A stretch of DNA of 64,000 nt, taken from Luteolibacter luteus. Its GTDB lineage: Bacteria; Verrucomicrobiota; Verrucomicrobiia; Verrucomicrobiales; Akkermansiaceae. The notes beneath the pieces are model-generated. The model had not been told where the DNA came from and made no database searches. It saw only the letters and a list, made by a program, of their open reading frames with translations. Position 1 is the stretch's first letter. Every line of letters starts with the position of its first letter. The DNA lies in the NCBI RefSeq assembly GCF_012913485.1, contig NZ_CP051774.1, positions 5,394,001-5,458,000 on the forward strand. Direction: 5' to 3'. Made by a program: the position numbers and the translations under genes. Positions 19,158 to 22,417 of this stretch are shown one piece after another.

Positions 19158-20459
19158 TCATTCTCCGAACTCCTTGCGCAAACGCTCCGGCAGTTCATTC
19201 CGTCCGAGCCACTCTTTCGCCGCGTTGCGATCCTCCACCAGCCAACCCTCGATGATGTGCCGGTAAAGCTGTTCCCTCAAGGCCTCCGACTGGATTCCGG
19301 GCACCTCGGCCAAGGCGATTGCAGCATTCCGGGTGGTGGGGCGCGGAGTCGCCGGTCTCGCCGCCTCGTCAGGAATGAACCGGACTCCGGACCGGTTGTT
19401 GTCATTGGAAGCCGCCCCTGCGATCAGGTCCGCCATCTGTTCCTCGGAGATGTCGTCCAGGAAGCGCCGCATGGTTGAGAACAGCTCAGAAAGGTCATCC
19501 TCTCGTGCCAATCCTGTTAGCAGGCCGCGGAGGGCAGCCTCACGTGCTTCTCCTGCTTCCATTTGCTCGACCGATTGCCTTGCTGCAGGCAGATCGGATT
19601 TCGGCCACTCCTTGTAGATCGGATGGTAAGACCATGGCTGAGCCGCGTCCGGATACTCGCGGAGGACGGCGAGCCGTGCTTCGTGGTCCTTCAATCCCCG
19701 GAGCAGCAGGTCAAGCCCGTGAAACTTGAAGGGAGGATCAAGCGAGTCCAGGAAAGCCTTGATGTCCCCGGGTTGTAGATTTCCGAACTGCGGTTGCGCG
19801 CGCCAAGGCCCGAATTCACGACAATCCTCAGGAACTTCACGGATGGCGCGTGCGATGCGCGGGAGATCATCGCCCAAGGCATCGATGGCTTTGCCCACCA
19901 TTGCCGTGACATTCCCGTCGTTGCCATTCTTCATATGATCCCTGAGATAATCCAAGGCCGCGTCCGGATCCTTCCCGATCCAAGCGGTGATTACCCGGAA
20001 ACCCCGGTAGCCCTGCGCTCCGGACCACTCCATCGCGGCCTCGGGGTCGACTTCGGTCCAAGCCGCGATGATCAGATCTGCAATGCTCCCCGCCTCGGTA
20101 GGGCCAGGTTTGCTCATCATCTGGAGCGTTTCCCTGGAAAGAGCCCTCTGCCAATCCTCCGGCTTGAAGTGCGACACCAGCTCTAACACTCCTTGTGTGC
20201 GGTCCGCTTCGTTCCCGATGGCCATGAGCGCTTGGAGCTGCTTGATCAAGCCATCTCCTTCAAGTGGTGGAGCCTTTGTTTGGCCGGCAGGGACCGAGGG
20301 CAGCGGGGTGGACTCTGCCTTCCGGGCCTTTGCTCTTGGATGCTGGCCAGAGGATTGTTTCGATGCCTGAGCATCCACATAGAGACGACCGCCGACGCTC
20401 AGGGCGGACATACCCAGCAACAGGGAGATGATAGCGATGGTGGCGGTGCGGGCTTTCAT
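19158..20459 (-). CDS. Membrane-anchored helical-repeat protein, partner of the sigma-factor fusion
   Basis: 433 residues. An N-terminal helix (about 7-27, IAIISLLLGMSALSVGG) anchors or exports it; a Pro/Lys-rich spacer follows, then an all-helical domain with repeats of the W..DP.AA..W/Y type: IAAWTEVDPEAAMEW and ITAWIGKDPDAALDY are clear. The same motif recurs in the C-terminal half of the sigma-factor fusion encoded just upstream, and the two frames overlap by four bases (ATGA at 20456-20459), so translation is coupled. I do not know a named function. Shared repeats and coupling suggest that the two proteins bind each other outside the cytoplasmic membrane. Confidence 0.7.
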   Translation of the reverse strand: MKARTATIAIISLLLGMSALSVGGRLYVDAQASKQSSGQHPRAKARKAESTPLPSVPAGQTKAPPLEGDGLIKQLQALMAIGNEADRTQGVLELVSHFKPEDWQRALSRETLQMMSKPGPTEAGSIADLIIAAWTEVDPEAAMEWSGAQGYRGFRVITAWIGKDPDAALDYLRDHMKNGNDGNVTAMVGKAIDALGDDLPRIARAIREVPEDCREFGPWRAQPQFGNLQPGDIKAFLDSLDPPFKFHGLDLLLRGLKDHEARLAVLREYPDAAQPWSYHPIYKEWPKSDLPAARQSVEQMEAGEAREAALRGLLTGLAREDDLSELFSTMRRFLDDISEEQMADLIAGAASNDNNRSGVRFIPDEAARPATPRPTTRNAAIALAEVPGIQSEALREQLYRHIIEGWLVEDRNAAKEWLGRNELPERLRKEFGE

Positions 20460-22360
20460 GGATTTTCAGATGGGCGGGTCTCCAAGACTTCGCGGACACT
20501 CGGTGGTATTTCGTGCTGCTCGATCCATTTTCGCGCAGCGGGTTCCTGCCTTGTTTCCAGCCATGCCTTGAGGTGGCGGGTGAGGGTCTTGTCGCGGAGT
20601 TCGCGGTCTTGAATCCGGAGGCTGAATTCCGCCCCTAGGACTAGGCCGCAACGGTCGGCGACCAGCAGCATCAGCGGATCGCTGGTCCATTCCGGATGCT
20701 GGTCGAGGAGGGCGATGGCGTCCGCCGGCTCAAGGAGCCCGACCCGGGTAAGGACTCCTGCCTTCGCTTGCTCGCGGACCTTGGCTTCCGGTAGCGCGTC
20801 GATCGCGGCGAGGGTGTCTTCCGGATAATCATTGTGCCAACGTGCGAACAATGACTCGATGTCGGCGAGGTGCCGCGCGTCTTTGTCGGCGAGAAGCAGT
20901 TCGAAAGCCTGACCGTATTTGCTGTAGTCGGCGAATGTTTTGACGCTTGCCCCGACGATCGCGCTCCGCTGTGGGCCATCGCTGGTGGCGGCGATCAGTC
21001 GTTCCAGGTCTTCGATCCGGAGCGTCGTACCGATGGCGTTGAGGGCTTCGATGCGGTCCTTTTCATCAGGAATCACCCCGAGCGCTTTCACCACGGCGGA
21101 TGCATCTTTGGTAGCGAGACTGGACAGGATCTGCACCAGCGGGAGGCGCGCCTTCGCATCACTGCCGGTGACATCCGGGAGGTTCCTGACGACCCAATCG
21201 ACCGCGGTGGCCGGGTCATCCTCGCCCCACGTCTTGAAAATCACAGCGGGTATCCCGCCGGCGGAACTCTTCCGCGCCCATCCCACGGCACCCAATGGAT
21301 GGCGCTTGGCCCAGGCAGCCAAGAACATGCGGAAGTTACTGGAACCCGTGTCGACACCAAGTTCTTGAAGCTGGTCCGCAGTCTCTTCGAATTGATCGGG
21401 TGCGAGTTCCCCGATGAAGGCCAGCATCTGCCGGGGTTGCTCGACGCGGCTGGAGAGTGCCAGGATTGACCGGAGGCGTTCTAAGCGTTCTCTGGAGCTG
21501 GCACCATTCCGTCTTTCGTTGCGCGTGCGAGGTAGGGTGCTTTCGCTGCTGCCGGCGGTCAGGGCTGCAGCGGATTTTACACCGGCTTCGGGATCCTCTG
21601 GACTACTACGAAAGGCGTAGCCCAGCGAAGTCATGAAAACGATCGCCGCTCCGGCAATTGCGGATTTCTGGACGGATGTCATGGCGAGGTGAAGATTGAG
21701 GCCTTGCGGCGCGAGCGGGATGACTCCCTTCGATACAGTGCTGATGGAGAGGGCGAGGGTGCTGGAGACCGGCGTGGCAGCGTTTGCCGGCAGCAGGGTG
21801 GCAAGTGCGGCGGTGGTTGTGGCGATTCCCCGGCTAGCCAACAGGCCACGCAGCTTTTCCAGCGCCCGGCTGGCGCGCTTCTTTGCAACCACCTCACTCA
21901 CGCCCAGCTGTCGGGCCACCTCGGCATGAGGCTGGTCACGGTAGTAGCGGAGCAGCAGCACTTCGCGCTCCGCAGTTGGCAGGCGGTTGATCAGGGAATC
22001 CACAAGCGGCGCCAGCGCCGACCAATCGGGTGAGGGCGTGTTGCTCATGGCGGCATGATAGGGGTTGGCGATCTCACGCTTCTTCCGGCGGGACTCGGCA
22101 CGCACAAGATCAATCGCCAGATGTTGGGCCACCCGATGCAGCCACGCTGTCAGGCTGAGGTTTTCCGGGATCAACGCGGCGCGCCGGGCCAGGCGCATGA
22201 AGGTGTCCTGCGCCACATCCTTGGCCAGGTCCTCATTCGCGGTGATTCGCCGCGCAACTCCGTGGACCAGCGGTAGATGCCGCTCCACCAGCAGCCGGAA
22301 GGCCGCTTCATCGCGGCCCGCGGCAAATCGCTCCAGTAGATCCCGGTCGGACAATTCCAT
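20456..22360 (-). CDS. ECF-type sigma factor fused to transmembrane helix and helical-repeat domain
   Basis: 634 residues. Residues 1-175 are a complete ECF sigma factor: region 2 (about 8-95, with AQDTFMRLARR and TAWLHRVAQHLAIDL) and region 4 (about 118-171, ending in the helix-turn-helix SEVVAKKRASRALEKLRG). A hydrophobic stretch (175-212) and a clear transmembrane helix (about 232-250, SAIAGAAIVFMTSLGYAF) follow. Residues 300-634 are helical repeats including WAKRHPLGAVGW and WGEDDPATAVDW. If the helix spans the membrane, the sigma domain is cytoplasmic and tethered, with the repeats outside. Release by proteolysis or signalling through the helix would be possible ways of control. No separate anti-sigma factor is seen. 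Confidence 0.82.
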   Translation of the reverse strand: MELSDRDLLERFAAGRDEAAFRLLVERHLPLVHGVARRITANEDLAKDVAQDTFMRLARRAALIPENLSLTAWLHRVAQHLAIDLVRAESRRKKREIANPYHAAMSNTPSPDWSALAPLVDSLINRLPTAEREVLLLRYYRDQPHAEVARQLGVSEVVAKKRASRALEKLRGLLASRGIATTTAALATLLPANAATPVSSTLALSISTVSKGVIPLAPQGLNLHLAMTSVQKSAIAGAAIVFMTSLGYAFRSSPEDPEAGVKSAAALTAGSSESTLPRTRNERRNGASSRERLERLRSILALSSRVEQPRQMLAFIGELAPDQFEETADQLQELGVDTGSSNFRMFLAAWAKRHPLGAVGWARKSSAGGIPAVIFKTWGEDDPATAVDWVVRNLPDVTGSDAKARLPLVQILSSLATKDASAVVKALGVIPDEKDRIEALNAIGTTLRIEDLERLIAATSDGPQRSAIVGASVKTFADYSKYGQAFELLLADKDARHLADIESLFARWHNDYPEDTLAAIDALPEAKVREQAKAGVLTRVGLLEPADAIALLDQHPEWTSDPLMLLVADRCGLVLGAEFSLRIQDRELRDKTLTRHLKAWLETRQEPAARKWIEQHEIPPSVREVLETRPSENP

Positions 22361-22389
22361 GACTCAACCGCTATCCGGCATGCTCTGAA

Positions 22390-22417
22390 AAAAGGTGACC
22401 GGGAAATCACCCCTTTT
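22390..22417. promoter_or_regulatory. Inverted repeat ahead of the sigma-factor gene
   Basis: AAAAGGTGA (22390-22398) pairs with TCACC and TTTT (22407-22417) with a two-base CC bulge. It lies 30-57 bases upstream of the sigma-factor start codon on the - strand, a place for promoter or leader control. It could equally be a weak bidirectional terminator. Confidence 0.25.

Follow-up and report, generated by a model that had tools for sequence, protein, structure and literature searches.

Luteolibacter luteus encodes an ECF sigma factor that is fused, through a single predicted membrane helix, to a helical-repeat domain (solenoid), and immediately downstream a membrane-anchored protein that carries a related solenoid. 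We read this pair as an envelope sensor in which a membrane-held sigma factor would work with a dedicated partner, and give the whole model a probability of about 0.55; the sigma factor and its partner probably act as one membrane signalling unit. Judged from sequence comparison, the two-gene unit has been duplicated repeatedly in Verrucomicrobiota, with its two genes staying together.

A coupled pair of genes

The window (the whole stretch of 64,000 nucleotides that was analysed) comes from a genome of 6.41 Mb in a single contig, in which the pair described here is one of nine such pairs. The fusion is also carried by Haloferula sp. BvORR071 and by one Akkermansiaceae metagenome bin. Coordinates of the two open reading frames bear out the ATGA overlap reported in the first-pass annotation of this DNA:

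19158..20459, minus strand: partner solenoid gene, 433 aa
20456..22360, minus strand: ECF sigma - membrane helix - solenoid fusion gene, 634 aa
20456..20459, minus strand: ATGA overlap of the fusion and partner genes, 4 bp (from ORF coordinates)

The two neighbouring genes that were checked code for a 2OG-Fe(II) oxygenase and a DUF1552 protein and are unrelated to iron uptake. Pfam detected no anti-sigma domain in the fusion, in the partner or in the two adjacent genes tested, in agreement with the earlier remark that no ordinary anti-sigma factor is present.

Sigma domain, membrane helix and juxtamembrane segment

The following parts of the fusion are referred to below:

22085..22291, minus strand: sigma region 2, residues 24-92 (Pfam PF04542, 4.6e-15; structure resembles E. 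coli SigE region 2)
21851..22003, minus strand: sigma region 4, residues 120-170 (Pfam PF08281, 1.5e-13)
21770..21832, minus strand: conserved cytoplasmic juxtamembrane segment, residues 177-197, RGIATTTAALATLLPANAAT (identity 0.68)
21680..21682, minus strand: methionine codon 227 just ahead of the membrane helix, ATG (GTG in some relatives)
21614..21673, minus strand: predicted single membrane helix, residues 230-249 (AlphaFold2 with low pLDDT, and membrane-window scoring)
20477..21496, minus strand: alpha-solenoid at the C terminus, residues 289-628, carrying W..DP.AA..W motifs and predicted to lie outside the cytoplasm

The 634-aa protein matches Sigma70_r2 (24-92) and Sigma70_r4/r4_2 (120-171) above the Pfam cut-offs, as expected from the first-pass description of a full ECF sigma factor, and also TIGR02937 above cut-off; besides the sigma-type domains no Pfam family was found up to E 1. 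It has regions 2 and 4 only, joined by a short linker, as in ECF sigma factors (sigma-70 group IV), and its sigma domain aligns with the SigE-RseA structure (VIA-align Z 13.6). The score for Sig-70_gvs1 (TIGR02989, the Rhodopirellula/Verrucomicrobium family) is 55.2 bits, below the cut-off of 124.55. With a helix after region 4 the protein belongs, by prediction alone, among ECF sigma factors with a membrane-spanning C-terminal extension.

In AlphaFold2 modelling on eight relatives, the two sigma regions come first, then an isolated helix (230-249), a disordered part and finally the solenoid (289-628). The isolated helix is modelled with very low confidence (pLDDT <50), as is the whole of 195-285. 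In the fusion of the window it is rich in alanine and no more than moderately hydrophobic; the most membrane-like 19-residue window nevertheless falls around 230-250 in all 15 close relatives, just past an [AV]M[TN]xxQK-type motif in each of them, and the segment ahead of it scores as clearly less insertable. The first-pass annotation had staked its proposal on a transmembrane helix within residues 175-260, which is where the predicted helix lies.

Mean pairwise identity within the close group is 0.68 for segment 177-197, 0.67 for sigma region 2 and 0.65 for region 4, with values of 0.42 for the membrane helix, 0.39 for the remaining linker, 0.28 for the solenoid and 0.20 for the outer linker. 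Segment 177-197 is the most conserved part of the fusion outside the sigma domains, and a comparable juxtamembrane segment recurs in fusions with other C-domains. It is a candidate for a built-in inhibitor that would hold the sigma domain inactive, or for a part that would be read by a protease.

In 47 of 70 fusions a methionine lies no more than 10 residues ahead of the membrane helix, as against 13% expected from the methionine content of the linker, and a methionine or GTG-encoded valine at this place is kept in most fusions of the wider family. Since a Shine-Dalgarno-like sequence accompanies the methionine in only 5 of the 47 fusions, an internal start is no likelier an explanation for its retention than a scar of the fusion or a local motif of the protein.

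The solenoids and the partner protein

The C-terminal helical domain with W..DP.AA..W motifs noticed in the first-pass annotation is modelled as a confident helical solenoid (289-628, pLDDT mostly about 90). It has no Pfam match and no PDB sequence family, and a search of the PDB with the solenoid profile gave nothing convincing. PPR and armadillo repeats were considered as its family and rejected, fold comparison yielding generic repeat-protein matches only. The partner, which has no Pfam match either, is made up of two parts:

20391..20447, minus strand: membrane anchor at the partner's N terminus, approximately residues 5-23
19167..20249, minus strand: partner solenoid, residues 71-431 (structure model)

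In the model an N-terminal helix (4-36, low confidence) precedes the solenoid, which starts at 71. The two solenoids are related (BLASTP of fusion against partner, E 5e-6; a profile of one retrieves the other), so that the same repeats do lie behind an N-terminal membrane anchor in the partner, as had been claimed. Ahead of its membrane helix the partner has about 4 to 9 residues, and the flanking charge bias is not decisive. Two coupled downstream genes of related fusions (L254 and L247, the C-domain of the L247 fusion being left untyped) begin with lipoprotein-type signals, and these sequences favour an exported partner. The solenoid of the fusion would lie outside the cytoplasm too, because a single membrane helix follows a sigma domain that is necessarily cytoplasmic and because partners elsewhere are of the lipoprotein type.

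Conservation and co-inheritance of the pair

Fifty-seven genomes were searched and the loci then inspected. All 15 close sigma-solenoid genes whose 3' side could be read, from six genomes, have a partner beside them; it lies 3' on the same strand, overlapping the sigma-solenoid gene or within about 41 bp. A coupled gene for a membrane-anchored protein or lipoprotein, mostly with a 4-bp overlap, also stands beside 18 fusions that are more distant and have long helical C-domains (chosen by a match to the fusion profile or by W..D..A..W motifs, the solenoid match being partial for a few). These fusions come from the L. luteus genome, from other genomes of the genus, from other genera of the family and from one other family of the class. 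Conservation of the partner beside the sigma fusion, the other point on which the first-pass proposal had been made to depend, is thus seen in 15/15 close and 18 distant cases.

Within the L. luteus genome a partner accompanies each of the nine fusions that show solenoid motifs and none of the four whose extension is shorter and different, the C-domains having been typed partly by eye; of the latter, partnerless kind are L004, L007, L008 and L010, all membrane-fused ECF sigma factors. Three solenoid-like sigma fusions of one genome (L156, L157 and L158 of G011) have no adjacent partner, nor is there one beside two long fusions whose C-domain type is unsettled (L073 and L088). One locus from another family of the class (L248, 346-4582) has two genes arranged in the same way, and clear W..D..AA..W repeats are numerous in both products.

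Distances between solenoids of the fusions correlate with those between their partners (r = 0.65, 15 pairs, permutation 5e-5), the correlation between sigma domain and partner being only 0.36. A tree of 51 sequences places the close group's fused solenoids in a single clade adjoining free-standing solenoids, and most of that group's partners on a line of their own; the subgroups agree between fused solenoid and partner. The matching trees of sigma-solenoid and partner fit duplication of the pair as a unit. Such co-inheritance, as read from sequence distances, would be compatible with contact between the solenoids and is no proof of it, as a shared duplication history alone can correlate trees. 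Free-standing membrane-anchored solenoid proteins of about 430 aa, with no adjacent sigma gene, occur across the family. In some genera two such proteins are encoded close to each other, next to a methionine sulfoxide reductase-like gene (identified by eye), as at L144-L150 in several genomes of one genus.

Promoter-like element and search for targets

A promoter-like element precedes the fusion gene:

22372..22406, minus strand: TTTCCCGGTC - 19 nt - CGGATA; it ends 11 nt upstream of the start codon of the sigma gene

Upstream regions of the sigma genes contain a TTTTCC[TG]GTC-type box, a spacing of 17 to 19 nt and then a CGRATA-like box, which ends 11 nt ahead of the start codon in 10 of 15 cases. 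The first, -35-like box was found upstream of 25/37 long-extension ECF genes, 1/13 other ECF genes and 7/202 other ORFs, a contrast with the controls that is suggestive and not an independent test, the motif having been defined on the same upstream regions. Because the element recurs just before the sigma start codon, it suggests that the sigma factor may autoregulate its own two-gene operon.

A regulon search with a strict pattern and with a genome-wide sequence model pointed convincingly to the sigma genes alone and to no other target. The top matches of the model are largely its training sequences and other matches score far lower; four of these lower-scoring matches in the L. luteus genome were examined and none stands before a plausible target gene. 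A model trained without this genome recovered just one of the genome's three promoters (E 0.73), with no clear separation from chance. At one further locus (L198, 4223-7353) the same promoter-like element is combined with a diverged C-domain and an ATGA-coupled gene for a 411-aa membrane protein. Membrane-fused ECF genes of other families of the phylum (upstream regions of L207-L250) also seem to carry promoter-like boxes (TTGTSCGGTTT and GCGGTTA-like) a short way upstream of the start codon.

Proposed mechanism and alternative explanations

In the proposed sensor, a cytoplasmic sigma domain would be followed by the juxtamembrane segment, one membrane helix and an outer solenoid, and the translationally coupled partner would present its related solenoid from an anchor of its own. 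When there is no signal, the sigma domain would be inactive through tethering and through segment 177-197, which would stand in for an anti-sigma factor. Once the solenoid pair changes (candidate inputs are a ligand, a misfolded protein or the state of the wall), this would alter the juxtamembrane part or expose it to regulated proteolysis, and the sigma domain would be freed for RNA polymerase. Contact between the two solenoids outside the cell is somewhat favoured, and release of the sigma factor by proteolysis rather than by conformational change is given an even chance. Since the active sigma factor would transcribe its own two-gene operon from 22372-22406, fusion and partner would rise together. 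Our most extended version can be put forward only tentatively: a widespread Verrucomicrobiota system of tethered ECF sigma factors, each inhibited by its own juxtamembrane segment and controlled by a co-inherited pair of outer solenoids, forming parallel pathways with their own promoters, to which internal initiation before the helix may add a sigma-less membrane solenoid.

Sigma/anti-sigma pairs are usually laid out as a sigma gene and then its regulator, both in a single transcription unit (PMC8103513). A gene order of this kind, together with the strict coupling and the matched trees, would suit a partner that is a negative regulator: an unconventional anti-sigma factor that works in trans by way of its membrane helix or its solenoid, holds the fusion off and is titrated by the signal. 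However, no known anti-sigma domain would fit into its predicted cytoplasmic tail of about 4 to 9 residues, some of the coupled genes encode lipoproteins and no anti-sigma family was matched; we regard this explanation as unlikely. A one-component control, by the juxtamembrane segment and the tether alone, would leave the solenoids with a separate job in the envelope and reduce the coupling to co-expression. The presence of a comparable segment in partnerless fusions with quite different C-domains speaks for it, as do the solenoid proteins that stand free of any neighbouring sigma gene. Yet in the L. luteus genome partners go with the solenoid fusions and are absent from the four others, and partner distances track the solenoid more than the sigma domain, which makes control of this kind decidedly improbable.

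That the search found no target genes beyond the operon could also be taken to mean that the sigma domain no longer works as a regulator and that the fusion serves as a membrane scaffold. We give this very little credence, as regions 2 and 4 are well above the Pfam cut-offs, few parts of the fusion are as well conserved as the sigma domains, and the promoter-like element recurs upstream. The envelope sensor with a dedicated partner is the reading that we retain.

Comparison with known systems

ECF sigma factors with extensions are recognised and hardly studied. A 2022 review (PMC8999054) lists membrane-spanning extensions in ECF48, ECF52, ECF53 and IutY, and repeat extensions in ECF42 (TPR) and ECF57 (WD40); its table of extension-bearing groups contains no example with a coupled solenoid partner. 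Literature on membrane-anchored sigma factors and on the sigma factors of the genus, covered in part, contained nothing on a fusion-partner system, which does not establish its absence from the literature.

Like the fusion of the window, the actinobacterial groups ECF52, ECF48 and ECF53 (SCO4117, Streptomyces coelicolor) have a C-terminal extension with membrane helices and an outer domain, and activation through proteolysis of the extension has been proposed for them (PMC8999054). They differ in having a zinc-finger anti-sigma-like domain, where the extension of the window fusion has no Pfam match, and no coupled solenoid partner is described for them in that review. IutY of Pseudomonas putida (ECF243) likewise has a sigma domain fused to a membrane-spanning part, which is inhibitory and from which release occurs by regulated proteolysis via Prc and RseP (PMC8999054); that part, however, is a fused anti-sigma factor in iron-siderophore signalling, and the window fusion shows no anti-sigma Pfam match. 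Among the groups with repeats, ECF57 of Planctomycetes has a C-terminal repeat extension thought to bind other proteins, and conserved cysteines (PMC8999054), but its repeats are WD40-like, whereas the extension of the window fusion is all-helical in the model and has no WD40 match. ECF42 shares a helical-repeat (TPR) extension and a conserved neighbour gene; no membrane helix is described for it, and its neighbour is YCII-related and no paralogue of the extension (PMC8999054).

The two-gene unit looks like a little-studied bacterial way of sensing events at the cell surface. If this is true, sigma factors of the phylum can serve as membrane receptors that rely on a dedicated co-receptor and do without a separate anti-sigma factor. 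With so many paralogous pairs, whose promoters are related, one could then ask how parallel signalling lines stay apart. Set beside the systems above, the fusion and its partner look like an ECF sigma factor with an extension, the conserved coupled partner being the distinguishing feature.
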